Source: Aphelocoma coerulescens
Taxonomy: Eukaryota; Chordata; Aves; Passeriformes; Corvidae
Assembly (NCBI RefSeq): GCF_041296385.1
Contig: NC_091019.1
Location: 7,401,264 to 7,465,263 of the forward strand
Direction: 5' to 3'
DNA: 64,000 nt
The notes under the pieces were generated by a model. It saw nothing but the letters and a program-made list of their open reading frames with translations. It did not search any database and had not been told where the DNA came from. Below are positions 9,284-62,798 of this stretch, piece by piece (position 1 is the first letter of the stretch; each line of letters starts with the position of its first letter). Both the position numbers and the translations under genes were made by a program.

Positions 9284-9289
9284 GAATAT

Positions 9290-9564
9290 TGTTGGGGTCC
9301 CTCCCCTGCCATGTAGCCCTGAGGGAGGCACGGGGTTTCCCTGCCCCTGCTCAGCCTCGTTCCCCATTGGTTGGTTTGTGTTCCCCTGCGCGGGCAAAGC
9401 AGCTCAGGTGCTGACTGCGGCAGTCGCTTGGCAGAGCCCGGCCATGCGGCTGGGGAAATAAACATCTCTGAAACATCTAGCAAGAATCCGTCCGTATATA
9501 TATGTTTCTTTTCCACGGGACTCCTGGTTGGATATAGGCGTGTTGCAGTATCCCCACTGCAACA
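9290..9564 (+). repeat. 5' LTR of cold-shock element, copy 1
   Basis: 275 bp, TGTTGGGGTCCC... to ...CCACTGCAACA. It contains CCCATTGGTTGG (CCAAT-type boxes in reverse), AATAAA in GGGGAAATAAACATC, and a short U5. It is nearly identical to 11215-11485. Confidence 0.92.
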
Positions 9565-9616
9565 ATATGGTGGAGATTTGAGGGCAGAACGATCCCCGAT
9601 CCCTAAGCGACTTTGT

Positions 9617-9625
9617 GTGAGTAAA
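9617..9625 (+). promoter_or_regulatory. Candidate splice donor in element leader
   Basis: GTGAGTAAA lies about 50 bp after the 5' LTR. The corresponding leader of the minus-strand copy has TTGTGAGTAAA at the same relative place. A conserved leader donor would allow spliced subgenomic RNAs, as in retroviruses. No transcript evidence is available. Confidence 0.4.
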
Positions 9626-9682
9626 CCCTGGAAACTTTGGATTCTTCTTCTTGGTTTTGTTTTGCTATTCCATATCTAAACA

Positions 9683-10855
9683 ATGGAGGAACCGTGGGAA
9701 GACTCTTGGCTTTCAGAGCCGCATATGGACATTTATCTTAAACTTAAAATGATTCTTGAACAACCGTTTGTAAATTTTAGCTTGATTCAAGCTCAGAAAG
9801 AACTGAAACACTTCCTGGCATGGTTGTTTAAGGACTTTTTCTATGTTTCTTGGGATTTAATTCTTACCAAGAGCTTTTGGAAGACCGTTTGGACCCAGTT
9901 AATATTTGAGTCAAAATATATGCCGATGGAAGAATATTTTCGTGAATATTATTTAATAACCGAGACTGTTGAGCAATGTCAGCTGTGTCCTGGTGAAGGA
10001 AAGCCTGGCTTAGGGACCGTGCGACCCAGGCCACGTGCACTGAGCGCTCTGCGAGCAGCAGCGAGACGGTTCCCGTGCGCGGGCGGAGCCACGCGGGCAG
10101 CAGTGTCGGTGGCAGAGCGAGGCGCGGCAGGAGCGGCGCAGCCCAGCAGTGCCCGCCCGGCCCCGCACAGCGCGTGGTGGAGCGAGCCCCGTGAGCGCCC
10201 GAACGAGAGGGGCGGCGCGCGGGCGGCTGGCGGTGGCGGAGCGGAGCCGTGCCCAGCCGAAACGCGCGCTGGAGCAGGGCACAGGGGGGTCATCGCTTGG
10301 GGGCCTGGCCGAGACGCAGCCCCTGGCAGTGGCAACGCAGCTGCGACCAGAGGAGGCGACGCACGGAGAACGGAGCGGCGCGGCCCGGCCCGGCCCGCGC
10401 GGCCCCGAACGCGACCCTGGGAAAAGCGCGCCGAAACCAGCAGCGCCGATAATTCCAACACGGGAGCGACCGAAAGAGACAGCAAATACACAGCAAGACA
10501 GAAAACAGCAGTCACTCGGAAAAAGGAAAAGACCATAGTAGCTAAGATCTTAGGGACAGTGAAATGGTATAATGTTAAACAAAATTATGGTTTTATAACA
10601 AGGTGTGATAACCAGCAAGACATATTCGTGCACAGAACTGCTATTAAAAAGAATAACCCTGAAAAATGCATCCCAAGCTTGGGAGATGGAGAGGTGGTAG
10701 AATTCAAAATCATACAAGGTAGAAAAGGGTTACAAGCATCGCAGGTCACTGGGCCTGATGGTGTTCCTGTAAAAGGCAGTATATATGCAAGAAATCCTAG
10801 TCATGTTAGACAATATCTCCATTGTAAACCCCCCCCTACAGTCTCCCTTTCCTAA
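9683..10855 (+). CDS. Gag matrix-like / Y-box cold-shock domain fusion protein
   Basis: A 390-codon ORF from the first ATG after the leader, in good context (acaATGG). Residues 1-95 are helical and aromatic-rich (HFLAWLFKDFF, SFWKTVWTQL) and resemble a betaretroviral Gag matrix region by pattern only. Residues about 96-280 are an Arg/Ala/Gly/Pro-rich linker from a very GC-rich segment (10010-10470). Residues about 285-370 are a cold-shock domain with RNP1-like YGFITR, RNP2-like DIFVHRTAI and the AIKKNNP insertion typical of vertebrate Y-box proteins (YBX family), which bind single-stranded RNA. The domain is uninterrupted by introns, consistent with capture from a spliced host mRNA. The frame then stops early relative to copy 2 because of a shift at the C8 run 10829-10836. 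A role in RNA binding or packaging is inference. Confidence 0.75.
   Translation: MEEPWEDSWLSEPHMDIYLKLKMILEQPFVNFSLIQAQKELKHFLAWLFKDFFYVSWDLILTKSFWKTVWTQLIFESKYMPMEEYFREYYLITETVEQCQLCPGEGKPGLGTVRPRPRALSALRAAARRFPCAGGATRAAVSVAERGAAGAAQPSSARPAPHSAWWSEPRERPNERGGARAAGGGGAEPCPAETRAGAGHRGVIAWGPGRDAAPGSGNAAATRGGDARRTERRGPARPARPRTRPWEKRAETSSADNSNTGATERDSKYTARQKTAVTRKKEKTIVAKILGTVKWYNVKQNYGFITRCDNQQDIFVHRTAIKKNNPEKCIPSLGDGEVVEFKIIQGRKGLQASQVTGPDGVPVKGSIYARNPSHVRQYLHCKPPPTVSLS
10010..10470 (+). other. GC-rich linker within the fusion ORF
   Basis: An abrupt change to very high GC (runs such as GGCCCGGCCCGGCCCGCGCGGCC) between the matrix-like and cold-shock segments. Retroviral and flanking DNA here is AT-rich. 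The minus-strand element has a GC-rich block in the same place (about 28870-29340). It could be part of the captured host mRNA (5' UTR or exon 1 of a Y-box gene) or an acquired structured RNA. Which one cannot be told by eye. Confidence 0.55.
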
Positions 10856-10997
10856 TCCCACCTTTCCCTTTTACCCTATGTCCTATTACCCCCAGTGTAT
10901 TCCCAATCCATTTTTTCATCCATGGTTTCCCTCACAAAACCCTGCCTTTGCCAATTGTTTCCCCAAAAATCCTTTTCCAATGCCGAGTGGGGGATGA
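10785..10997 (+). pseudogene. Frameshifted Pro/Phe-rich C-terminal tail of the cold-shock protein
   Basis: Past the C8 run at 10829-10836, the +1-shifted frame reads a tail with NPTFPFYPM, PQCIPNPFFHPWFPSQNP and a PSGG end. The minus-strand copy has the same tail in frame with its cold-shock domain ([24 protein letters not shown], ending LRGG). So the tail is part of the ancestral protein and copy 1 has lost it by an indel in the homopolymer. It is not a YBX basic/acidic-cluster tail. Confidence 0.7.
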
Positions 10998-11016
10998 AAA
11001 GGGGGAGGGAAGAGAT
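10998..11016 (+). promoter_or_regulatory. Conserved purine tract in cold-shock element
   Basis: GAAAAGGGGGAGGGAAGAG directly after the tail stop. The same tract (GAAAAGGGGGAGGGAAGAA) follows the tail in the minus-strand copy near 28367-28385. It resembles a retroviral polypurine tract but sits about 200 bp before the 3' LTR. The sequence directly before that LTR (AAACGGGTGAGA) is a weaker candidate. Confidence 0.4.
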
Positions 11017-11214
11017 TGAACCCTCTCCTGCCTCAGTTTCCCCACAGGCATGTCCAGAGAGTTCTGTCTCCCTTCTATCAGCCCTAAGATGTTCCAGAGA
11101 ATCTGTTTGGACATTTAAAGACTCAGGAGGGTGGCTTGTTTTGTTTTGAAATTGTCCCTGTTATGTTTATCCAGTTGTCTTCATTCTCCTTTTATTAAAA
11201 TAAAACGGGTGAGA

Positions 11215-11485
11215 TGTTGGGGTCCCTCCCCTGCCATGTAGCCCTGAGGGAGGCACGGGGTTTCCCTGCCCCTGCTCAGCCTCGTTCCCCATTGGTTGGT
11301 TTGTGTTCCCCTGCGCAGGCAAAGCAGCTCGGGTGCTGACTGCAGCAGTCGCTTGGCAGAGCCCGGCCATGCGGCTGGGGAAATAAACATCTCTGAAACA
11401 TCTAGCAAGAATCCGTCCGTATATATATCTTTTCCACGGGACTCCTGGTTGGATATAGGCGTGTTGCGGTATCCCCACTGCAACA
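11215..11485 (+). repeat. 3' LTR of cold-shock element, copy 1
   Basis: 271 bp, the same family and nearly the same sequence as 9290-9564, with a 4-bp deletion in the TATATAT/GTTT region and about four substitutions. It is followed directly by the TSD gaatat. Confidence 0.92.
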
Positions 11486-11497
11486 GAATATGACTAC

Positions 11498-11852
11498 TGT
11501 AGGTACAAAAATGCTGCTAGCAAGGATTTTCTTGCTATTTTCTAAGCCCATGAGACTTTTCTCTCTCACAGAAGAGGTAGCAGAGTTATGTCAACAACCA
11601 AACACTTGCAGCCTTGAAAAGTCTTTTTATAGCACAGTAGAAAAATATTTTGACAACGGATGTTTTAGGTTTTTAGCCAATCACCCCCAAGGGGTGGCTG
11701 ATCCTTTGTCCAATTAGACTATGAAGAAAAAGTCTATAAAAGAGTTTGTAAAATAATTAAATAAATCAATCTTGCTGCACAGTTCCTGCCTGCTGGATCT
11801 TCTCTCCTCCTCTCTACAGCTGTGGGACACAGTGATATACCCTAGGGTTGCA
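11498..11852 (+). repeat. 5' LTR (LTR a) of the betaretrovirus-like ERV
   Basis: Starts TGTAGGTACAAAAATG. It contains AGCCAATCACCCCC and GTCCAATTAG (CCAAT boxes), TCTATAAAAGAG (TATA box, near 11733) and AATAAA at 11760-11765. U5 then ends near GGTTGCA. Confidence 0.8.
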
Positions 11853-11860
11853 GTAATATT

Positions 11861-11878
11861 TGGTGCCGCCGAGGTGAT
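11861..11878 (+). promoter_or_regulatory. Candidate primer-binding site
   Basis: TGGTGCCGCCGAGGTGAT lies about 8 bp after the proposed LTR end. The first eight bases (TGGTGCCG) are those expected for a His-tRNA type site. The remainder diverges, so the tRNA is not assigned with confidence. Confidence 0.4.
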
Positions 11879-11985
11879 CTGCACGCTGCGAAGTGTCCTG
11901 CTGCTGCAAGCCAAGCCAAATTTCTCTAGTGGTACGCTGTTCTCCTTCTCCCCCCCAGGACCGGGAGGTCCAACAGGACTGAGAA

Positions 11986-14755
11986 ATGGCAAACAGCAGC
12001 TCACAAACCAACGCTGTGGTAATGGTCTGGAAAGGTGTTTTCAGTATAATGCGCACCTCCATTCCTGAGAACTCAGTTCGGGAATTATTAGATTGGGCTA
12101 CCTTAAAAGGGATTTCCATGGACAGAGATACTGCCCTGGACTTTGGATTATGGCAAGAACCTGGCTGTGCTGTCTGACACGAATTCCCGTTTGGGGACCC
12201 AGCAGTGATAGAATTATACCGAACCTGGTGTTCGTTATTTATGCTGCTGACAGACCTTGACTGTGGCAGCCGAGCTGGCTCACCTATTTCTGTGATGAGT
12301 GATGGAGGGATATACGAAGGGGACCCCGCTGACCAGGCTTCAGGGGCGTGTGGTTCTGGATCCGAAAAAAAACCCCCGGCTTCACAGGCAGAGCCTGTGC
12401 CAGCTCAACCTGCACAGTCGCAGGACTCCATGGCCCCCAGGGACCCTGCGCCGGCAGAGGCGGGGGAGTTGGGGCAGCGGGAAGTCGCACAGGCTGCATT
12501 GCCACTCAGCTCGGCAGCGGCCCCGGCTTATCCAGGGCCATGAATTAGCGGTTTAGCGAATTAGACCATGGCGGCTCCTAGCCCGTCTGCACATGCATCG
12601 GCTGCGGTAGGAACACCCGGATCTACCTTCTTGGCCAGCGTAGCCCCAGGCGTGACTGCACCAAGACTGCCTGGGTGTGGTCCATTGCCCTCTATGGTGC
12701 TGCACTGTTCTGCACCACTGCAGAACTGAGCCATCGACCTTTTAATACAGTATCTGCCTTTGCTGACAGAGTTACCAAACATATCATGGAAGCTGGAGGA
12801 ACTGCTCAGCTTGCAAGAGCAGCTGCTGCGGATGCCAGAGGCACACCGCTCCGTGGGGTGTGCCAGGCCTGTGCCACCCGCACCGCCCGCACTGCCCGTG
12901 GGAGACGCGGCTCTGAACCAGGGAGTCGCGTGGGCAGCGGCAAACCCAGAACTAGCGCTGCAGCAGGAAAACCCAGGAGAGGCGGCGGCGGCTGCGCCCC
13001 GGCCAGTGGCGGCGCTGAACGCCGCCACAGAGCAAGGGCACGTGGCCGGAGCCAGGCGCAGGCACAGTGGAATAGACAAGCACGGCGGAATAGACAAGCA
13101 CGGCGCCAGGCACAGCTGCAGCGCAAGGGCAAGCGATGGCACCGAACGCTGCCGTGGAGCAAAAGACGAGCGCAGCGCCGGGAGCAGCTGCAGCCCTGGA
13201 GATAGCTGCAGTAGCTCCTGTACCAGTTCGGTCAGGACCAGCCAAGATGGCATCTCGTAAAGAGGCTGCTGTTCAAACTGCAGGGCAGCCAACTGTAGTC
13301 TGTGCTGTCTGTTCTGCCTCTAGTGAATCTGCCCCTCTCTGTCCACATCTCTTCACTCCCAGCACCTCAGAGTTGCCTTTGCCTGTTGATTCCTCATCAG
13401 AAAGTGAGGCAGATGAGGTTCTGGCCCCAGGTCATAAAGCTGCCCTAGCTGGGCGGCGAAGGAAAAGGCTGCGCCGGTCTCGCCCCTGGACCTTTCAGGA
13501 CTGCATGGCAACAGTGCGTCCAGCCCACTACAATCACTTCTTAGAGTCAGTTAAGATGTGAGCATTGGAGGAGAGTGACTGGAGATTATTGGAAACACTT
13601 GGAATGCCAAATAGATTTGAGGATTCTGGGGGTAATCGGGGAGCTGTTACACTCCATCCACAGGCTGTGCCAGGAGTTCAAGATGGTAGTGACTCCCCAA
13701 AAGGGGAGATCCAAGCTTTCCCGGTGTATAAGGCTCTCCCAAATTCAGGCAAGCATGATAAGCATGAGGTAATTGCTTGGAAGGTTGCCCAGGACCTCCA
13801 ATCCAAGGTGGCACAATATGGGCTAGGTTCTGCAGAGGTTATGCAGATAATAAGGGTGATAAATACAGATTTGCTTTCTCCATTTGATATTAGACACTTA
13901 GGTCAAATTCTATTTCAACCTGTACAATTTACAGTTTTTGAGAAAACCTGGAGAAAGCTGGCCGACAAGGCTGCATTAGGGAATATGCAGCTCCCTGCTG
14001 CTGATCCTAGATGGACAGCGGGAACAGATGCTTTGATGAGGACTGGTCCATTCTCTGATCCCAGCCTACAGGGTACTTTGTCCTATAGCATCCTGCAGCA
14101 AGCTCAACAGGTCAGCATGACTTCTCTGTTGAAAACAATAGAGTTGTCTACGCCCAGAAAGCGATATACTGAAATAGTTCAAGGGAAATCAGAGTCATTC
14201 CTCTCTTCTGTAGAGAAAGTCGCTGCTTCTCTCGAGAAGCAGGTTGAGGATGACGGGTTAAGACAGTTGTTGTTAAGGCAGTTAGTGAGAGATAACGCAA
14301 ACGAGGAGTGCAGAAAAATCATAGATGCCTTACCAGGGGACCCTGAGGTAACAGACATGGTCGAGGCCTGCTCTAAGGTGGGATCTGGGAATCAGAAAAG
14401 GCCTGCTTTGGCTGCGTTCCTGCAGCCTGTTCACACATCTTCTAATTGTGAACCAAAGCAACCAAAACAGGCAAAAAAACCAAAGTGGCCTAAGCCAAGC
14501 CAAAAGGAGAACACAGCGATCCCCCAGTGCAAGAGGTGTGGCAGACCAGGGCATTGCTCGGACTATTGTAGATCCCTGACTCATGTCGATGGTCGGCCTT
14601 TGTCGGGAAACTTCTGCTGGGGTGCAAGGAGGGGGAATTGCTCTCTGATGCAGTCGCTCCCCCAGAGAGTGGCACAGGCCTACTCAGCCACCCTAGAGAC
14701 AGCACCCAGGGATCAGATGGTTTTGACGTCCATACCTCAGCAGCAGTCATCTTAG
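11986..14755 (+). pseudogene. gag: gag pseudogene (matrix, capsid, nucleocapsid)
   Basis: Starts at ATG 11986 with a matrix-like segment (helical, SVRELLDWATLKG). In the same frame it has a TGA at 12175 and another stop at 12541. An Ala/Pro-rich region follows (about 12760-13260), including an 18-bp tandem duplication encoding GIDKHG twice near 13070-13105. The frame then shifts; from 13136 it is open apart from a TGA at 13559. Capsid features lie in 13565-14440, with a major-homology-like stretch (IVQGKSESFLSSVEKV) near 14170. A CCHC zinc knuckle CKRCGRPGHCSDYC lies near 14527-14570. A working gag would be one frame; this copy has at least three stops and one frameshift and is not functional. 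Confidence 0.82.
14605..14611 (+). promoter_or_regulatory. -1 frameshift slippery heptamer (gag-pro)
   Basis: GGGAAAC in the correct phase (G-GGA-AAC relative to the gag frame), placed after the zinc knuckle. A -1 shift here enters the pro frame, which is open into dUTPase. This heptamer is a known gag-pro slip site of betaretroviruses of the Mason-Pfizer type. The downstream RNA structure was not evaluated. Confidence 0.65.
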
Positions 14756-14949
14756 ACTCTAGCGGCATTTATAAGGTTCCCTTCGATGCATATGGACCCT
14801 TAGCCCAGGGATCCAGTGCAATGCTGGTGGGAAAACCTGATGTTGCCCATCAAGGAATCTTAGTGCACTCAGGAGTTATTGACACTGACTTTAAAGGTCA
14901 GATTCATGCTATGGTCTCCACGCAAAAACCCCCCTGTCACTATTCCTGA
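14612..14949 (+). pseudogene. pro: dUTPase domain of pro
   Basis: The frame is -1 relative to gag and overlaps its last 140 bp. It contains trimeric dUTPase motifs: an early GSDGFDVHT (motif 1-like), and GVIDTDFKGQIHAM (motif 3-like, with the conserved Asp). Such a domain upstream of protease is a betaretroviral trait and limits dUTP during reverse transcription. The frame is lost at the A5C6 run 14924-14934, where protease continues in another frame, so one base has been gained or lost there. Confidence 0.75.
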
Positions 14950-15406
14950 AAAGACTTGCCTTGCTAAATTAGTGCCTTTTAAGTTTTTTGGCCCCAGGAT
15001 AGAACAACAAACTCATGAAGATAACGGCAGTGGATCTACAGGACTTCCGCAGGCCTTCTGGACTGCAGACATCTCTGACCAAAGGCCACAGATGACATGT
15101 ACCCTGATCCTGCCACACGCCTGTCCGCCCCGGACTCAGCTTTGAGGTTTGATTGATACGGGTGCTGATGTAACTACCATCTCCTTCTTTGCGTGGCCTC
15201 CTTCATAGCCTTTAGCCCCTGTGGGATCGGCCATCGCAGGATTAGGAGGAACCACACAGAGCTATTTAAGCGAACGGCCTGTGGTGGTGAAGGACTCAGA
15301 GGGGCACCCAGCTATGATTAGGCCTTATGTTGCTACCACTTCCCATAACCTTTGGGGACAGGATGTGTTGGCAGCTTGGGGCGTACAGATTGGGACAAAT
15401 TTTTAG
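14935..15406 (+). pseudogene. pro: Aspartic protease domain of pro
   Basis: Begins with a GSTGLPQAFWT segment typical of the pre-protease junction. It reaches the active-site signature LIDTGADVTTIS near 15150 and ends with a WGQDVLAAWGVQI C-terminal motif near 15355-15395. The frame is broken by TGA at 15143, directly before the active site, and by TAG near 15206. It is inactive as it stands. Confidence 0.75.
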
Positions 15407-15419
15407 CAGGGGTCACTGT

Positions 15420-15485
15420 GTGTAAGAGCGCACAGTATCCTACACTGCCTTTGAGGTGGTTGATTAACACACCAATCCGAGTCAG
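15420..15485 (+). other. Junction of the reverse-transcriptase deletion
   Basis: After the protease end, a short RT-start-like segment (LPLRWLINTPIRV, near 15440-15482) passes directly into the RNase H motif DSAQLVELRAV (15485 on). The fingers, palm and thumb with the catalytic YxDD are missing. The same junction recurs in the second unit at 17452-17515, so the deletion predates the duplication. Confidence 0.75.
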
Positions 15486-16612
15486 ATTCTGCTCAGTTAG
15501 TTGAATTAAGGGCTGTTACCATGGCTTTTCAGCGATTCTCACAGGAACCTTTGAATTTGGTTACTGACTCTGCTTATGTAGCAGATATCACCCAATGCTT
15601 AGATTGTTCCCTTCTGAAGGAGGTGAACAATGCGGCTCTGTTTTCGCTGTTGCAAACCTTGTGGTCTGCAATTCAAGCTCGAGTGCATCCGTATTACATT
15701 CTGCACATTCGAAGCCACACCAATTTACCAGGTTTTCTAACGCAAGGCAATGCCAGGGCTGACATGCTGGCCAACCCTGCATGGGTAGCGCCTCAGCCTG
15801 ACAAAATTGCACAAGCCAAGGCATCGCACGGTTTCTCCCATCAAAGTGCACATACCCTGCAGAAGCAGTTTCATTTAACGCCAACCAAGGCTCGCAACAT
15901 TGTCAGCGCTTGTGCTGACTGTCACGGACTCGCTGCGCCTTTGCCAGCGGGGGTAAACCCCAGAGGGCTAAAAGCCTTGCAGATTTGGCAAACGGATGTA
16001 ACTCACATCCCAGAATTTGGTCGGCTGAAATATGTGCAGGTGTCTATTGACACTTTCTCCTCGGCTATGTGGGCTACTGCTCACACTGGAGAGAAGGGCC
16101 GTGATGTCATTGCCCATTGGAAATTGGCTTTCTCAGTCCTGGGCGTGCCAGCTTCTGTGAAAACTGATAATGGTCCTGCCTAGGCCTCGGTGAAGACGCG
16201 GCAGTTTTTACACCTATGGGGTGTAGACCATACCTTTGGTATCCCACATTCTCCTACTGACCAAGCCATTGGTGAACTCGCTCATGGTACCTTGAAGCGT
16301 GTTTTGGGCAAGCAGAAAAGGGGAATGCATGGAGAAACCCCACTGAGCCAGCTAGCAAAAGCTTTGTATACAATTCATCACCTTACAGTACCACAAAATT
16401 CAAATAATCCTGTTATTCTGAATCATTTTCTCTCATTGCAGTCTGCAGGCGACAGACAACTGCCCCGGCCAAAAGTCTGGGTGCGGAATTTACTCACTAA
16501 CCAGTGGGAAGGCCCTCATGAGCTTATCGTTTGGGGTCGTGGGTATGCTTGCGTTTCCACAGATACTGGGGTACGGTGGCTACCTGCAAAATGTGTTCGC
16601 CCTGACCTATAG
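15485..16612 (+). pseudogene. pol: RNase H - integrase (pol 3' part)
   Basis: RNase H begins upstream of ATG 15521 (DSAQLVELRAV, then TDSAYVADI and HIRSHTNLPG). The integrase zinc-binding segment has the CADCHG Cys pair near 15910. The catalytic core has WQTDVTH (first Asp), KTDNGPA (second Asp) and QAIGELAHGTLKR (Glu), so the D,D,E set is present. The C-terminal DNA-binding domain contains VWVRNLLTNQWEGP and GVRWLPAKCVRP. One in-frame TAG at 16181, directly after KTDNGPA, splits the core. The frame ends in TAG at 16610. It would strand-transfer viral DNA if intact. Confidence 0.82.
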
Positions 16613-16795
16613 CACCAGAGGCAGAACAGGCAACCTCCAAATGATGACCAGAACGCCAATCATCCAAATGGCGACCAGAATGTAGAGCATCAGCCTAATG
16701 ACTCTTCTGGTGATGACCAGGATGTCAACCATCAGGCAGATGGTCCTCCTACAAGCAGAGACTGGGATGGCCCTTCTACGGGCAGAGACTGAACT
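16613..16795 (+). other. Open Asp/Asn/Gln-rich tail after the integrase stop
   Basis: Past the TAG the same frame stays open for about 60 codons with imperfect repeats of the NDDQNANHPNGDQN type. It ends at a TGA after STGRD. The second unit (17846-17998) keeps the same TAG and an open frame of similar composition. The tail may once have belonged to integrase. Whether it is ever translated is unknown. Confidence 0.45.
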
Positions 16796-16908
16796 TTGGA
16801 TTTCTTGTTGTGGGGTCGGATCGTTGAGGCCTTGGGGACATGTTTGGAGTTGATAACTGATGTATATTTCTATTTGGCATTAATAGTAGAGTTGTTATCT
16901 TATAAAAC

Positions 16909-16921
16909 AAAAAGGGGGAAT
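16909..16921 (+). promoter_or_regulatory. Polypurine tract before LTR b
   Basis: AAAAAGGGGGAAT directly precedes TGTAGGTAC of LTR b. This is the expected plus-strand primer site of reverse transcription. An equivalent tract precedes LTR c at 18111-18122. Confidence 0.75.
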
Positions 16922-17292
16922 TGTAGGTACAAAATGCTATTAGTGAGGATTTTCTTGTTATTTTCTAAGTCCGTGAGAGACTTTTCTCTCTCACAGAAGA
17001 GGTGGCAGGGAATGTAAACAACCAAGCCACCTGCAACCTTGAAAAGTCTTGTTTATGGTATAGTAGAAAAATATTTTGACAATGGATGTTTTAGGATTTT
17101 AGCCAATCACCCCCAAGGGGTGGCTGATCCTTTGTCCAATTAGACTATGAAGAAAAAAGTCTATAAAAGAGTTTGTAAAATAATTAAATAAATCAATCTT
17201 GCTGCACAGTTCCTGCCTGCTGGATCTTCTCCTCCTCCTCCTCCCTATGGCTATGGGACACAGTGCTATACCGTAGGAACCAGGCCTGCGGT
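16922..17292 (+). repeat. LTR b of the betaretrovirus-like ERV
   Basis: Same family as LTR a: TGTAGGTACAAAATGC start, CCAAT boxes, TCTATAAAAGAG, AATAAA near 17187. It carries (CTC)n expansion in U5. It leads straight into protease sequence at about 17293 without primer-binding site or gag. Confidence 0.8.
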
Positions 17293-18122: not shown

Positions 18123-18446
18123 TGTAGATACAAAAATGCTATTAGTGAGGATTTTCTTGTTATTTTCTAAGTCCGTGAGAGACTTTTCTCTCTCACAGAA
18201 GAGGTAGCAGTTATGTCAACAACCAAACAACCTGCAACCTTGAAAAGTCTTGTTTATAGAACGGTAGAAAAATATTTTGATCATGGCTGTTTTAGGATTT
18301 TAGCCAATCACCCCAAGGGGTGGCTGATCCTTTGTCCAATTAGACTATGAAGAAAAAGTCTATAAAAGAGTTTGTAAAATAATTAAATAAATCAATCTTG
18401 CTGCACAATTCCTGCCTGCTGGATCTTCTCTCCTCCTCTCTAGCTG
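18123..18446 (+). repeat. LTR c of the betaretrovirus-like ERV
   Basis: Starts TGTAGATACAAAAATGC and follows LTR a and LTR b through TATA and AATAAA. It loses similarity after CCTCCTCTCTAGCTG, so the last 50-60 bp of U5 seem to be missing. Confidence 0.75.
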
Positions 18447-27690: not shown

Positions 27691-27905
27691 AATCGTATAA
27701 TTTCAATTTCATAAAACTATTCATTGAAGAGTTTATGAATCTTTTTGAATTCAGGAGACCAGGTAGATTGCTGGTCTTGGTTAAGTAAAGAGTTTGGAAA
27801 AAATTATCTTTTAAAATTTTTTTTTAATATAAGATGTTGTCAATCGATAAAGTAAAAAGGAAAAAATATATCCTAGGTGTCAAGAAATTGAAAATTAAAA
27901 AAGAT

Positions 27906-28185
27906 TGTTACAGTGGGCATTACTGTAACACGTGTATCAAACAAGGCGGCCCATGGAAAAGAAATATATATAGGCTGATTCATGATAGATGTTTCAGAGC
28001 TGTTTATTTCTCCAGCCGCATGGCCGGGATCTGCCAAGGAACTGAGGTAGTCATGGGACCTGAGGGTCCTTGGCCGTGCAGGGGAGCACAAAACAACCAA
28101 TGGGGAACGAGGCTGACTGGGGGCTAGGGAAACCCCGTGTCTCTTCCCCAGGGCCCCTCTCCCAAGGCTACATGGCAGGGGGGAG
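27906..28185 (-). repeat. 3' LTR of cold-shock element, copy 2
   Basis: Same family as 29817-30106. The minus-strand start (TGTCGGGGTCCC in the partner) is deleted, so similarity begins at CTCCCCCCTGCC. Confidence 0.85.
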
Positions 28186-28382
28186 ATTTAAAACTTGAAA
28201 ACAACTGGATAAACATAACAAGAACAGTTTTAAAATAATACAAGCCACCCTCCTGAGCCTTTAAATGTCCAAACAGATTCTCTGGAACATCTTAAGGCTG
28301 ACAGAAGCGAGACAAGACTCTCCGGGCATGCTTTGTGGGGAAACTGAGGCAGGAGAGGGTTTAATTTCTTCCCTCCCCCTTT

Positions 28383-28847
28383 TCATCCCCCCCTCAGTAT
28401 CGGAGAGGAGTTGTAGGGAAAGGGAATTGTATAGGGAAGCCATGGGGTGAAAAACGGATTAGGAATAAACTGGGGATGGGGTAAACTTAGGAAGGGGTTC
28501 ATATTGGGTATAGGGTAAAAGGGGAAAGTAGGTTGTGGGTAGGGAAGTTGCTGGGATGGATATTGTTTATAATTTTGTGCATAACGGCTGCCTTTGACTG
28601 GAATACCTCCCAGCCCAGTAACATTTGCTGCTTGTAAATCCTTATTTCCTTGTACTATATCAAATTGTACAACTTCCCCATCTCCTACACTTTGCAGGTA
28701 ATTTTTAGGGTTGTTCCTTTTAATGGCAGTTCTATGGATGAATAAATCTTCCCCTGTATCATCTCGTGTTATAAATCCATAGGTTTTTTTGACATTGTAC
28801 CATTTCACAGTTCCTGTGATTTTCATTGCTATAACTTCTCCTATCAT
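28383..28847 (-). CDS. Y-box cold-shock domain protein with Pro/Phe-rich tail
   Basis: A 154-codon ORF starting at ATG 28847. Residues about 5-85 are a cold-shock domain: [11 protein letters not shown]1-like YGFITR, RNP2-like DLFIHRTAI, then the AIKRNNP insertion and [11 protein letters not shown] seen in vertebrate Y-box proteins. An N-terminal VIAMK precedes the domain, as in YBX proteins just before their domain. Residues about 95-150 form a tail of repeated Pro, Phe and Tyr ([22 protein letters not shown]) found also, frameshifted, in copy 1 but not typical of YBX. The domain is about two-thirds identical to copy 1 by eye. Likely an RNA-binding protein; its action on element or host RNA is inference. 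Confidence 0.8.
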
Positions 28848-29440: not shown

Positions 29441-29704
29441 TTATGTCGCTAGTCCATGTTTTGTTTGATCCCTTATCTTATCCCAGATCTCGTACCAAAA
29501 ACACTTGAGACTAGTTCCACAAGGATCAATATCAAAAAGTAAGTCTCGAGAAATATAGAATAAATTTTTGAAAAGCCAGTTAAAAAAATGTTCTAGATCT
29601 CCCTGAACAAATACTTTCTTGTTCTGTTGTTCAAGGATTTCTTTAACTTCTAGATACATTTCTTTCTGTGGCTCAGAGAGCCGCATTTCCCACGCTTCTT
29701 CCAT
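29441..29704 (-). CDS. Gag matrix-like protein of cold-shock element
   Basis: An 87-codon ORF starting MEEAWEMRLSEPQKEMYLEV, colinear with the start of the copy 1 fusion ORF (MEEPWEDSWLSEPHMDIYLK). Shared features are an EILEQ/MILEQ helix, LEHFFNWLFKNLFYISRDL against LKHFLAWLFKDFFYVSWDL, and an aromatic helix after it. The pattern resembles a betaretroviral matrix region, usually used for membrane and RNA contact. It ends before the GC-rich block, so in this copy it is not fused to the cold-shock domain. Confidence 0.6.
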   Translation of the reverse strand: MEEAWEMRLSEPQKEMYLEVKEILEQQNKKVFVQGDLEHFFNWLFKNLFYISRDLLFDIDPCGTSLKCFWYEIWDKIRDQTKHGLAT

Positions 29705-29816: not shown

Positions 29817-30106
29817 TGTTACAGTGGGGATTACTGTAACACACGTATCAAACAAGGCGGCCCATGGAAAAGAAATATATATAGGCTGATTCATGATAGA
29901 TGTTTCAGAGCTGTTTATTTCTCCAGCCGCATGGCCGGGATCTGCCGAGGAACTAGGCAGTCACGGGACCCGAGGGTCCTTAGCTGCACAGGGGAACACA
30001 AAACAACCAATGGGGAACAAGGCTGACCAGGGGCTAGGGAAACCCCATGTCTCTCCCCCAGGGCCCCTCTCCCAGGGCTACATGGCAGGGGGGAGGGACC
30101 CCGACA
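29817..30106 (-). repeat. 5' LTR of cold-shock element, copy 2
   Basis: 290 bp reading, on the minus strand, TGTCGGGGTCCC to ACTGTAACA, with CCCATTGGTTG, a GGAGAAATAAACAG polyadenylation signal and TATATATATTTC. Clearly the same family as 9290-9564. Confidence 0.9.
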
Positions 30107-30112
30107 AAAGAT

Positions 30113-56491: not shown

Positions 56492-57407
56492 TGGTTGGGG
56501 TTTTTAGGCGTTCGCCTAGTTTTTTTCTGTTAAAGGAATTTTCCCCCATACTGGTGCTAGGGGAACAAATGGCCAGGTTCTTAAGAAGAACAAAAGACCT
56601 GGCCGCTCTTTTTGTTTCATCTGAGTGTGTGGTCAGTCGGTCTTGGTGTTCAGAGAGAGAGGGAAGCTGTTTGTTCTTTGGCCATTTTTCTTTCTGTCGG
56701 AGCAGCACCGGGATCCCAAGCCCGCCTTCCCTGCCCCGCTGGGAGCCGGGCTGTGGCCGCTCTGCCCTGCTGCTGCTTCGAGCCTTCGCTACATTGTAGC
56801 CCTGCTTGCCCTGCCTGCCCGGACCCCCGGGGGGGTTCTCCGTTTGGCTACACCTTGTCTGCCACCCGGGATTTGTGCTTGCTCCTGCCATTCCAGCCTG
56901 CCGTTCCAGCCTGCCGTTCCAGCCTGCTGTTCCCGAGGGTCCAGCTGGACACCGGGATCAGCTGCCCAGGGGTTTGTGAAGCTTCTTTGTTCCATCCCTT
57001 CCCGGGATCCCAGGCCATCACTGCTGTGTGCTCCCCGAGTTTGCTCCGGAGCGCCCCCTGCAACCATGGGGGAACCATCACACCTGCCCTGCTCACCGGG
57101 AGCCGTCAGCGCCCCTGCCAGCTGGGAGCGGAACTGCACCCGAGGGGAAAGGGCCTGACAGCCAAGAAGGCTGGGACTGGGTTTGTGATTGTTTGCTGTT
57201 ACTGCCATAGTTATTGCTGTTTGTTTGACTGGTTATACACATATAGATATATAATAGTAAAGAACTGTTATTCCTATTTCCCACATCTTTGCCTAAAAGC
57301 CCCTTGATTTCAAAATTATAATAACACGGAGGGAAGGGGGTTGCATCTGCCATTCCAAGGTAGGCTTCTGCCTTCCTTAGCAGACACCTGTCTTTCAAAC
57401 CAAGACA
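56492..57407 (+). mobile_element. ERVL-type solo LTR, same family as the 3' provirus
   Basis: About 916 bp from TGGTTGGGGTTTTTAGG to CAAACCAAGACA. It matches, in opposite orientation, the LTR 58547-59479 along its length: GGGATCC-rich GC part, TGCCATTCCAGCCTGCCGTTCC repeats, AATAGTAAAGAACTGTTATTCC. The flanks gcca and gcta are an eroded TSD. The GC-rich half yields spurious frames of up to 231 codons. Confidence 0.8.
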
Positions 57408-58546: not shown

Positions 58547-59479
58547 TGTCTCGGTTTGAAAGACAGGTGTCTGCTAAGGAAGGCAGAAGCCTCCCTTGGA
58601 GTGGCAGATGTAACCCCTTTCCCTCTGAGTTATTATAATTTTGAAATCAAGGGTCTTTAGGCAAAGATGTGGGAAAATAGGAATAACAGTTCTTTACTAT
58701 ATATATATATATATATATATATAACTAGTCAAACAAAACAACAACAACTATGGCAGTAACAGCAAACACAAACCCAGTCCCAGCCTTCTCGGCTGTCAGG
58801 CCCTTTCCCCTCGGGTGCAGTTCCGCTCGCAGCCGACAGGGATCGCTGGCGGCTCCCGGTGAGCAGGGCAGGTGCGATGGTTCCCCCGCGGCTGCAGGGG
58901 GCGCTCCGGAGCGAGCTCGGGGAGCACGCGGCTGCTCTGGCGCCCTGGGATCCTGGGGAAGGATGGAACAAAGGAGCTTCACAAACCGGTGGGCAGCTGG
59001 TCCCGGAGTCTCGGAAACAGCAGGCTGGACTGGTAGGCTGGAGCGGCAGGCACAAACACAAATCCCGGGTGGCAGACGAGATGTATCCAAAAGGGGAACC
59101 CCCCGGGGCTCCAGGCAGGCAGGGTAAGCACGGCTACAGCGTAGCGAAGGCTCGAAGCAGCAGCGGGGCGGGCGGCCACAGCCCAGCCTCCAGCAGGGCA
59201 GGGAAAGCAGCTTTGGGATCCCCGGTGTTGTTCCCAGCAGAAAGGAAAGACGCCGAAAACGGGAACCAGCAGCTCTTCTCTCCGCGGCTTCTCTCTCCAG
59301 ACGCTGAGAGCGAACTGAACTGCCCGCCAGGTGAGAACAAAAGCCTGGCCGGGCCCTTTTGTCTTTCTTAAGTATGGCTATCTCCTCTCAAGTATGGCCA
59401 TTTATCTCCTAGCAACATGCTATGGGAAAAAATTCCTTTAACAGAAAAAAAAAACTAGGACTAAACTGAAACCCCAACA
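58547..59479 (-). repeat. 3' LTR of the ERVL-type provirus
   Basis: 933 bp reading, on the minus strand, TGTTGGGGTTTCAG to ...TTTCAAACCGAGACA. It contains a (TA)n microsatellite at 58700-58727 near the polyadenylation region. Confidence 0.85.
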
Positions 59480-59615: not shown

Positions 59616-62600
59616 TCACCCTAAAACAAGGTCCCCTTGCGGTATGCATCGGGTCTCTCCATCCCTTTGCATCACCCACCAGGTACAACCTGGTCCCTGA
59701 GCAAAAACAACCCCACGGATGGGTTTGTCTTTGCTCAAGGCAGACTTTACCCAAACAGTTTTTCCAAGCATACCTCTCATGTGCACCACTGGAACCTTAT
59801 CCCCATCTGTTGTTTGTAGGGGTTCGGATTGGGCAGGGCCTGCTCGGCTGGTGGAGCCTCGGGTGTTAACTAACCAGGTGGCTTTTGCTAAATGCAGCTC
59901 CCAGTTTTTGAAACTCCCCCCACCCAGTGCCTTCAAGGTGGTTTTAAGCAGTCCATTACACCGCTCAACCTTCCCAGCTGCTGGTGCATGGTAAGGGATG
60001 TGGTACACCCACTCAATGCCGTGTTCTCTAGCCCAGGTGTTTATAAGGCTGTTCTTGAAGTGAGTCCCATTGTCAGATTCAATCCTCTCAGGGGTGCCAT
60101 GCCTCCAAAGGACTTGCTTTTCAAGGCCCAGGATGGTGTTCCGGGCAGTAGCGTGAGGCACAGGGTAGGTCTCCAGCCATTCTGTGGTGGCTTCTACCAT
60201 TGTGAGCACATGGCGCTTGCCTTGGCGGGTTTGAGGCAGTGTGATGTAATCAATCTGCCAGGCCTCCCCATACTTGTATTTGGACCACCGCCCACCATAC
60301 CACAGGGGCTTCACCCGCTTGGCCTGCTTGATCGCAGCGCATGTCTCACAGTCATGGATGACCTGGGAGATACTGTCCATGGTCAGATCCACCCCTCGGT
60401 CTCGTGCCCACTTATAGGTGGCATCTCTGCCCTGATGGCCTGAGGCATCATGGGCCCATCGAGCTAGGAACAACTCTCCTTTATGTTGCCAATCCAGGTC
60501 TATCTGGGACACCTCTATTTTCGCAGCCTGATCTACCTGCTTGTTATTACGATGTTCTTCATTAGCCCGGCTCTTGGGAATGTGAGCATCTACATGACGG
60601 GCCTTCACAGATAGCTTCTCTACTCGAGTGGCAATGTCTTTCCACTCCTCAGCAGCCCAGATTGGTTTTCCTCTGCGCTGCCATTTTGCCTTATTCCACC
60701 TTTCCAGCCAACCCCACAGAGCATTGGCTACCATCCATGAATCAGTGTAAAGGTAGAGCTTTGGCCACTTCTCTCTTTCAGGAATGTCCAGAGCTAATTG
60801 AACGGCTTTGAGTTCAGCAAATTGGCTCGACCCACCTTCTCCTTCAGTAGCCTGTGCAACTTGTCGTGTGGGGCTCCATACAGCAGCTTTCCATTTCCGG
60901 CTAGCACCTACAATGCGGCAGGAACCATCAGTGAAGAGGGCATATTGTCTTTCACTCTCTGGTAGCTCGTTGTATGGTGGGGCTTCTTCGGCACGCGTCA
61001 CCTGCTCCTCTTCTTCTTCAGAAGATAACCCAAAAGTCTCACCTTCTGGCCAGTTCGTAATTATTTCCAAGATCCCAGGGCGACTTGGGTTTCCAATTCG
61101 GGCGCGCTGCGTGATGAGGGCGATCCATTTGCTCCAAGTAGCATCGGTGGCGTGATGCGTGGAGGGAACCTTTCCTTTGAACATCCACCCCAGCACCGGT
61201 AGTCGGGGTGCCAGGAGGAGTTGTGCCTCAGTTCCAATTACCTCTGAGGCAGCTTGGACTCCTTCATAGGCTGCCAAGATTTCTTTCTCTGTGGGAGTGT
61301 AGTTGGCTTCGGACCCTCTGTAGCTTCGGCTCCAGAATCCCAGCGGTCGGCCCCGAGTCTCACCAGGCACCTTCTGCCAAAGGCTCCAGGACAGGCCATT
61401 GTTCCCGGCTGCAGAGTAGAGCACGTTCTTCACCTCTGGTCCTGTCCTGACTGGGCCAAGGGCTACGGCGTGAGCGATTTCCTGCTTGATCTGGGCAAAG
61501 GCTTGCTGTTGTTCAGGGCCCCAGTGGAAATCGTTCTTCTTGCGGGTAACCAGGTAGAGAGGGCTCACGATCTGGCTGTACTCAGGAATGTGCATCCTCC
61601 AGAAACCTATGGCGCCTAGGAAAGCTTGTGTTTCCTTCTTGTTGGTCGGTGGAGACATCGCAGTGATCTTATTGATGACCTCAGTGGGAATCTGACGTCG
61701 TCCATCTTGCCACTTCACTCCCAGGAACTGGATCTCTCGGGCAGGCCCCTTGACTTTGCTCTTCTTGATGGCGAAACCAGCTTCCAGGAGAATTTGGATT
61801 ATTCTCTCTCCCTTCTCAAACACTTCTGTTGCGGTGTTCCCCCACACAATGATGTCATCAATGTACTGCAGATGTTCTGGGGCCTTACCCTTTTCCAGTG
61901 CAGCCTGGATCAGCCCATGGCAGATGGTGGGACTGTGCTTCCACCCCTGGGGCAGTCGGTTCCAGGTGTACTGCACACCCCTCCAGGTGAAAGCAAACTG
62001 AGGCCTGCACTCTGCTGCCAGAGGAATGGAGAAAAATGCATTGGCAATGTCAATGGTGGCATACCACTTTGCTGCTTTGGACTCCAGCTCATACTGGAGC
62101 TCCAACATGTCCGGCACAGCAGCGCTGAGTGGTGGAGTCACTTCATTCAAGCCACGATAGTCCACAGTCAATCTCCATTCCCCATCAGACTTGCGCACAG
62201 GCCAGATGGGGCTGTTGAAGGGTGAGTGGGTCTTGCTGACCACCCCTTGGCTCTCTAGCTCACGGATCATCTTGTGGATGGGAATCACAGCATCTCGATT
62301 CATCCGGTACTGCCGGCGGTGCACTGTTGAGGTGGCAATTGGCACTCGTTGCTCTTCCACTTTCAGGAGCCCAACTGCAGAAGGATTCTCAGACAGTCCG
62401 GACAGGGTGTTCAACTGCCTAATGCCCTCTGCCTCCACAGCAGCAGTCCCAAATGCCCACCTGAGTCCCTTTGGGTCTTTGTAATAACCATTCCGGAGGA
62501 AGTCTATGCCCAGAATACATGGGGCCTCTGGACCGGTCACAATTGGATGCTTTTGCCACTCCTTCCCAGTCAGGCTCACCTCAGCTTCCAAAAGGGTCAA

Positions 62601-62798
62601 CTGCTGTGATCCCCCAGTCACCCCAGCAATGGATACAGGTTCTGCCCCCACATGTCCCGATGGCATTAAAGTACACTGTGCCCCAGTATCAACCAATGCA
62701 TCATATTTTTGTGGCTCTGATGTGCCAGGCCATCGGATCCACACCGTCCAGAAAACCCGGTTCTCCCGTGCCTCTTCCTGGCTAGAGGCAGGGCCCCT
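59616..62798 (-). CDS. pol: ERVL-type protease - reverse transcriptase - RNase H - integrase
   Basis: Open for 1042 codons from 62744, and on back to the gag TAG at 62799. No ATG stands at the start (the first listed codon is GTG), so readthrough from gag is the likely route. Residue numbers count from 62744. Protease has LVDTGAQ (about 18-24). Reverse transcriptase has TIDIANAFF (Asp about 232), LPQGWKHSP and YIDD (294-297). RNase H has TDGS (about 606), FAELKAV and YTDSW (668). The integrase zinc segment has HDASGH and CETC (about 765-802). The catalytic core has Asp832 (WQIDYITLP), Asp891 (SDNGTHF) and Glu927 (GKVERCNG), the last two 35 residues apart. All key residues are present, so it could be enzymatically active and could serve elements lacking pol. 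Class III by pattern. Confidence 0.9.
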   Translation of the reverse strand, partial: RGPASSQEEARENRVFWTVWIRWPGTSEPQKYDALVDTGAQCTLMPSGHVGAEPVSIAGVTGGSQQLTLLEAEVSLTGKEWQKHPIVTGPEAPCILGIDFLRNGYYKDPKGLRWAFGTAAVEAEGIRQLNTLSGLSENPSAVGLLKVEEQRVPIATSTVHRRQYRMNRDAVIPIHKMIRELESQGVVSKTHSPFNSPIWPVRKSDGEWRLTVDYRGLNEVTPPLSAAVPDMLELQYELESKAAKWYATIDIANAFFSIPLAAECRPQFAFTWRGVQYTWNRLPQGWKHSPTICHGLIQAALEKGKAPEHLQYIDDIIVWGNTATEVFEKGERIIQILLEAGFAIKKSKVKGPAREIQFLGVKWQDGRRQIPTEVINKITAMSPPTNKKETQAFLGAIGFWRMHIPEYSQIVSPLYLVTRKKNDFHWGPEQQQAFAQIKQEIAHAVALGPVRTGPEVKNVLYSAAGNNGLSWSLWQKVPGETRGRPLGFWSRSYRGSEANYTPTEKEILAAYEGVQAASEVIGTEAQLLLAPRLPVLGWMFKGKVPSTHHATDATWSKWIALITQRARIGNPSRPGILEIITNWPEGETFGLSSEEEEEQVTRAEEAPPYNELPESERQYALFTDGSCRIVGASRKWKAAVWSPTRQVAQATEGEGGSSQFAELKAVQLALDIPEREKWPKLYLYTDSWMVANALWGWLERWNKAKWQRRGKPIWAAEEWKDIATRVEKLSVKARHVDAHIPKSRANEEHRNNKQVDQAAKIEVSQIDLDWQHKGELFLARWAHDASGHQGRDATYKWARDRGVDLTMDSISQVIHDCETCAAIKQAKRVKPLWYGGRWSKYKYGEAWQIDYITLPQTRQGKRHVLTMVEATTEWLETYPVPHATARNTILGLEKQVLWRHGTPERIESDNGTHFKNSLINTWAREHGIEWVYHIPYHAPAAGKVERCNGLLKTTLKALGGGSFKNWELHLAKATWLVNTRGSTSRAGPAQSEPLQTTDGDKVPVVHMRGMLGKTVWVKSALSKDKPIRGVVFAQGPGCTWWVMQRDGETRCIPQGDLVLG

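Follow-up and report, generated by a model that had tools for sequence, protein, structure and literature searches.

How does a retroelement come to carry an RNA-binding domain of its host, and what might that domain do for it? The question is raised by a stretch of 64,000 nucleotides of the Aphelocoma coerulescens genome (contig NC_091019.1, positions 7,401,264 to 7,465,263; hereafter the window), in which an earlier note had described a complete element of about 2.2 kb with near-identical long terminal repeats (LTRs) and a perfect 6-bp target-site duplication, enclosing a Y-box cold-shock domain (CSD). The element (copy 1) is complete as described: it occupies window positions 9290-11485 on the forward strand (2,196 bp) between two copies of GAATAT, and its LTRs, which end in TG...CA, differ by 4 substitutions in 271 aligned bases and one 4-bp indel. 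Where the earlier note saw one element, the observation proved larger: a copy of a second subfamily (copy 2) lies in the same window. The CSD is one part of an open reading frame (ORF) that also encodes a domain predicted to resemble retroviral matrix (MA), and copy 1 is composed as follows.

9284..9289, unstranded: left target-site duplication, GAATAT (read in the sequence; script)
9290..9564, + strand: 5' LTR, 275 bp, TGTTG..CAACA (direct repeat with 11215-11485)
9457..9462, + strand: AATAAA, a polyadenylation-signal-like motif within the LTR (read in the sequence; copy 2 also has it)
9565..9682, + strand: 5' leader, between the end of the LTR and the start of the ORF
9617..9622, + strand: GTGAGT, splice-donor-like (read in the leaders of both window copies)
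9683..10855, + strand: ORF of 390 amino acids (aa) with MA-like domain, linker and CSD, the tail being lost by a change of frame (85% identical over 98% to P0005 of C. moneduloides)
9683..9985, + strand: MA-like domain, predicted fold
9986..10531, + strand: GC-rich linker coding for an Arg/Ala/Gly/Pro-rich stretch (76% GC over 10000-10440; linker composition of P0005)
10532..10798, + strand: Y-box CSD (PF00313; Y-box CSDs in PDB; W65, F74, F85, H87 and K118 kept)
10785..10997, + strand: ORF with the Pro/aromatic tail, in copy 1 in a different frame from the CSD
10998..11214, + strand: 3' untranslated region (UTR) with a purine tract at its start (87.7% identical between subfamilies)
11215..11485, + strand: 3' LTR, 271 bp (direct repeat with the 5' LTR)
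11486..11491, unstranded: right target-site duplication, GAATAT (read in the sequence; script)

With the whole ORF as query, Pfam returned PF00313 (E = 9.8e-21), and with the CSD as query the eight best matches in PDB were Y-box CSDs (E from 6e-35 to 4.8e-29), far above the best other CSD (1.1e-12). The long loop AIKKNNP of Y-box proteins is present, and the domain is thus a bona fide CSD of the vertebrate Y-box type, as the earlier note had it. The picture of a captured domain needs one correction: rather than standing by itself in the element, the CSD shares the 390-aa ORF with the MA-like domain. That N-terminal domain is predicted from a Foldseek structure search (pdb_via collection) to adopt a retroviral matrix-like fold. 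A Pfam search for its Gag parent gave only weak unrelated rows, none of them a Gag family; in PDB the MA domain of copy 2 had no match and a profile gave only unrelated ones (E 0.17 or worse); a protein database holding proteins of limited length yielded only MA-CSD proteins; and a scan of viral contigs gave 97 pattern matches, none of which was confirmed.

Neither a capsid (Gag_p24) nor a nucleocapsid zinc knuckle was matched by Pfam in the window ORF or in the related proteins P0005, P0006, P0008 and P0015; as a positive control, the same library recovered Gag_p24 (3.3e-23) and a zinc knuckle (1.2e-5, below the curated cut-off) from a neighbouring endogenous retrovirus (ERV). No pol is present in copy 1, which is 2.2 kb long with one long forward ORF in which Pfam gives only the CSD; from neighbouring ERV ORFs this library did recover reverse transcriptase, RNase H and integrase. 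The tails of P0005 and P0015 hold 1 and 0 charged residues, respectively, 12-13 aromatics and 16 prolines in 52-55 residues, and the alternating basic and acidic clusters of the host-type Y-box C-terminal domain do not occur in them. Without a capsid or zinc knuckle, both of which were sought, the element protein is not classed as a Gag; without the C-terminal domain, it is not classed as a Y-box protein either.

This arrangement is not peculiar to the window. DNA matching the CSD was met at 978 places on a first look through the 1.33-Gb genome, and all 40 of the places that were scored are 98-100% identical to it. Of the 40 scored places, 20 loci were examined, copy 1 among them, together with one tandem array; being the best CSD matches, these loci are not a random sample. 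Paired LTRs of 271-293 bp delimit elements of 2168-2224 bp at 19 of 20 loci (L023 lacks one side), and 17 of 19 have target duplications (13 exact of 6 bp, one exact of 5 bp, three with one mismatch), the other two having none. The LTR-MA-CSD-LTR arrangement thus recurs in this genome at sites with differing target duplications, and the elements are a high-copy, recently mobile, non-autonomous LTR/ERV derivative. Read from the MA start, the frame stays open to the end of the CSD in 11 of the 19 loci, and through the tail as well in 7. Divergence within LTR pairs ranges from 0.3 to 8.4% across loci (median 4.1%). The 4/271 substitutions of copy 1 correspond to about 0.5 million years by the formula in PMC7341801, a figure that depends wholly on the rate assumed; LTR divergence is a doubtful clock here, since some copies at 5-8% have an open frame and recombination is likely. 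In the array (L028, G000:C4:114685500-114694100), five LTRs stand head to tail with a period of about 1.91 kb and are shared between units, which suggests LTR-LTR recombination.

A protein search with the full ORF returned 258 proteins. Among the best 120, the first are from C. moneduloides (the best 85% identical over 98%), and P0015 of A. coerulescens (34% identity over 95% of the ORF) stands ahead of ordinary Y-box proteins, which match at about 60% identity in the CSD alone. MA-CSD proteins, annotated as uncharacterized, are thus present in Corvus moneduloides and Aphelocoma coerulescens; twelve clusters named after C. moneduloides have 38 member sequences in total, 24 of them in one cluster, and the host range of the family is probably songbirds. 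P0014 is a 219-aa protein with two CSDs in tandem.

Copy 2 was found by BLAST of copy 1 against the window. It lies on the minus strand at 30106-27906 and is older than copy 1, its LTRs of 290 and 281 bp differing by 19 substitutions in 280 positions with 11 gap columns; its duplication is ATCTTT.

30107..30112, unstranded: target-site duplication at the 5' LTR, ATCTTT on the element strand
29817..30106, - strand: 5' LTR, 290 bp
29441..29704, - strand: MA-like ORF, 87 aa, stop-terminated
28383..28847, - strand: open frame of 154 aa with CSD and Pro/aromatic tail
27906..28186, - strand: 3' LTR, start deleted
27900..27905, unstranded: target-site duplication at the 3' LTR

The order of parts is identical in the two copies, and identity part by part is 83.6% and 83.1% for the two LTRs, 62% for the leader, 61% for MA, 71% for the CSD and 69% for the tail; the linkers align no better than shuffled sequence, at chance level. 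By sequence, the window copies represent two subfamilies, A (copy 1) and B (copy 2). P0008 of C. moneduloides combines the two: its MA is 87% identical to that of the A-type P0005 and 28% to that of P0015, its CSD is 89% identical to that of P0015 and 63% to that of P0005, and its tail is B-type. Such a mosaic implies recombination between the subfamilies, provided that the gene prediction is right.

The best-conserved piece between the subfamilies is the 3' UTR (10998-11214 and 28187-28382), which at 87.7% identity exceeds the LTRs and is possibly an RNA element; folding of it gave a weak signal in copy 2 (z -2.0) but none in copy 1 (z 0.41), and neither RNA motif enrichment nor RNA folding yielded anything convincing. 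In both copies a sequence starting with TGG, matched to no tRNA, begins 2-3 bases past the LTR. At the 3' LTR of copy 1 stands AAACGGGTGAGA, with a cleaner purine tract about 200 bp upstream.

The route by which the CSD was acquired can be read from a comparison with the host genes. YBX1 (C22) and YBX3 (C2) were located in the same genome by means of the YBX1 C-terminal domain, and their CSD exons were read out. Within the stretch that matches the element CSD, three introns interrupt YBX1 (3448, 2083 and 219 bp) and three interrupt YBX3 (1706, 4780 and 661 bp); the element CSD crosses the three YBX1 and three YBX3 junctions without an intron, so that capture went through a spliced RNA. The earlier note had claimed a domain uninterrupted by introns and captured by a non-autonomous element in a manner resembling oncogene transduction. 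The comparison with both host genes bears out the first claim, and the intronless CSD, lack of pol and fusion to MA support the second. Both findings by which the note said it could fall were looked for, and its reading withstood each. The domain does not group outside the Y-box proteins, as the PDB ranking and, in a tree of Y-box CSDs only, the position of vertebrate YBX1 as the nearest non-element rows to copy 2 show; nor are the LTRs those of an unrelated insertion around a host retrocopy, since the arrangement recurs at other sites of this genome and MA-CSD proteins are found in corvids.

The CSD tree has 31 rows, all of Y-box type, ten of which are element rows (8 of the 15 element proteins found and both window copies). 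All ten lie to the same side of one branch (89/96, not starred), which is consistent with a single capture. The evidence on the donor is split among the candidate paralogues YBX1, YBX2 and YBX3. In the protein tree the elements join YBX1 without firm support (48/98), YBX2 is not rejected (p-AU 0.32) and YBX3 is nearly rejected (p 0.07). On the tail side, the motif YAANRSHPRQYP of P0013 is YBX1-like and VKGSRYAQN of subfamily B is YBX2-like; subfamily B has Tyr at position 99, however, which argues against YBX2 by a rule given in PMC7226217. Over 246 sites of DNA, copy 1 agrees with host YBX1 at 157 and with host YBX3 at 150; for copy 2 the counts are 160 and 165.

Once captured, the domain has not drifted freely. 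Between subfamilies the CSD has a synonymous divergence (dS) of 1.19, a nonsynonymous divergence (dN) of 0.25 and a dN/dS of 0.21 (bootstrap 0.09-0.42), with 21, 17 and 39 differences at codon positions 1, 2 and 3; dN/dS is 0.24 (0.10-0.58) for the tail and 0.12 (0.10-0.49) for MA, where dS is saturated and 549 of 1000 bootstraps were usable. Among the 20 genome copies the corresponding polymorphism ratios (pN/pS) are 0.12 for MA, 0.15 for the CSD and 0.36 for the tail, with in-frame stops in 1, 0 and 1 of the 20 copies, respectively, all counted in the reading register of copy 1 and disregarding indels; choosing copies by their CSD match lowers CSD diversity and should affect the MA ratio less. 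On these codon comparisons, MA and CSD are under purifying selection. A simple reading is tempered by the LTRs and the 3' UTR, which differ less between the subfamilies than synonymous sites do. In 16 element CSDs (P0004, which begins inside the domain, was left out), many of them near-copies, W65, Y72, F74, D83, F85, H87 and K118 are conserved in 16/16 and K64 and N67 in 15/16, while position 69 is Arg in none (Lys in 14) and position 70 is Asn in 3. RNA-contact roles of CSD residues, including stacking by W65, F74, F85 and H87, are set out in PMC7226217.

What the protein does is a matter of weighing. It is probable, on balance, that this non-autonomous ERV encodes a Gag-like MA-CSD protein that binds the element's own RNA for stability or packaging, much as the earlier note had suggested. 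The captured CSD would bind, coat and stabilise the unspliced element RNA, taking over the RNA handling of the missing nucleocapsid; MA would link the RNA-protein particle to a helper retrovirus by way of the helper's Gag, and the helper would supply capsid, reverse transcriptase and integrase in trans. The conserved RNA-contact residues, the purifying selection, the MA-like fusion and published links of YB-1 to mouse mammary tumour virus (MMTV), murine leukaemia virus (MLV) and human immunodeficiency virus (HIV) strengthen this proposal. YB-1 is named an HIV cofactor, and its RNA-dependent support of MLV and MMTV production is cited, in PMC6040738; MMTV Gag meets YB-1 in RNA-dependent foci, and knockdown yields fewer particles, according to PMC6797609. 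An element with an MA-like domain fused to a Y-box CSD would bring a factor of the YB-1 type along.

It is unlikely that the protein instead serves as a decoy, vying with host YBX proteins for RNA and altering stress-granule or germ-cell RNA control, so as to shield the element from silencing. The host's RNA-stacking residues are kept and the host C-terminal domain is missing, as would suit a decoy, and the packaging and repression of germ-cell mRNA is a role of YB proteins (PMC7226217); the fixed fusion to a matrix-like domain is, however, left unexplained.

Host fragments captured by retroelements are often passengers, and a CSD transduced once and carried along without function for the element would be a case in point. 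In eight of the 19 copies the frame that begins with MA is broken before the end of the CSD, and copy 1 itself shifts frame after the CSD, both of which would fit a passenger. A passenger is nonetheless quite unlikely and already disfavoured, given the CSD dN/dS between subfamilies, the absence of CSD stops from all 20 copies, the stacking residues kept even if many sequences are near-copies, and the crow mosaic P0008, in which an A-type MA and a B-type CSD were brought together and one CSD is still present.

Improbable, in turn, is a DNA-binding regulator, in which the CSD protein would act on an inverted CCAAT (Y-box core ATTGG) in its own LTR to control transcription: CCCATTGGTTG occurs in the LTRs of both window copies, but CCAAT boxes are common and NF-Y is their usual binder, and an MA-like fusion better suits cytoplasmic assembly. 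In its favour, Y-box proteins owe their name to such DNA sites (PMC7226217). A domesticated host gene family merely flanked by LTRs, to which annotation as uncharacterized proteins in crow and jay and an ORF open in 11 of 19 copies might point, is highly improbable and is refuted for the family by the many dispersed near-identical copies, of which 17 of the 19 examined each have a separate LTR pair and target duplication as marks of mobility, though one domesticated copy may be among them.

The binding of element RNA by the MA-CSD protein can be taken further, if only tentatively: in a lineage of vertebrate retroelements the RNA-binding half of a Gag may have been replaced by a captured Y-box CSD, so that MA-CSD would mark, stabilise and deliver the RNA to helper particles, and an insertion near the crow gene NDP may be such an element. 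The adjacent betaretrovirus-like ERV (window 11498-17277), which starts about 6 bp past the right target duplication of copy 1, was considered as the helper and rejected, as neither its LTR nor its ORFs matched the element in BLAST.

11498-11846 and 16922-17277, also 18123-18442: LTR-like repeat of the neighbouring ERV
13562-14755: Gag_p24 of the neighbouring ERV
15464-16183: RNase H and integrase of the neighbouring ERV

Elsewhere in the window, the minus strand at 59616-62798 holds an uninterrupted frame of 1,060 aa with reverse transcriptase, RNase H and integrase domains, and near it lies an inverted pair of about 730 bp, 85% alike (56686-57407 and 58547-59248).

The family touches the question of how elements without a pol of their own secure the selection and protection of their RNA. 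It appears to carry a version of a host factor that the papers above tie to RNA stability and particle production of MMTV, MLV and HIV, and so offers a natural setting in which to ask if nucleocapsid functions can be met by a Y-box domain. Capture through a spliced RNA stands out in birds, which are said to have few retrogenes (by the title of a paper cited in PMC6523648). If the crow NDP insertion, with its link to plumage and premating isolation, does belong to the family, the family would bear on a well-known speciation trait.

Among the titles and abstract openings returned by literature searches that covered part of the matching papers, no cold-shock LTR element was found. LTR retrotransposons of rotifers and plants with extra ORFs (PMC5408684, PMC7264820) have likewise acquired additional coding sequence, but the openings of those abstracts name no CSD, and the context here is that of a vertebrate ERV. 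The ERVK subfamily corCorLTRK1b of the hooded crow, to which PMC7341801, the one paper that a search on this subfamily brought up, assigns a 2.25-kb insertion upstream of NDP with an LTR of 296 bp, resembles the present family (2168-2224 bp, LTRs of 271-293 bp) in its corvid host and its size, the comparison covering element and LTR length. With YBX1, YBX2 and YBX3 the element protein shares a CSD with RNP motifs, the Y-box loop and the RNA-stacking residues; it differs in that the CSD is only about 60% identical, a Pro/aromatic tail replaces the basic/acidic C-terminal domain, and a matrix-like domain stands at the N-terminus. Like the retroviral Gag of MMTV, Mason-Pfizer monkey virus (M-PMV) and Rous sarcoma virus (RSV), it is placed after a leader and begins with a predicted matrix fold, whereas a CSD stands in the place of the capsid and zinc-knuckle nucleocapsid, neither of which was detected in the element ORF. 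Comparable in design are the acute transforming avian retroviruses, which are gag-onc fusions with spliced host coding sequence behind Gag-like sequence and no pol; here, by contrast, an RNA-binding domain has been taken up, purifying selection acts on it, and its carrier is a fixed, high-copy endogenous family rather than a sporadic tumour virus.

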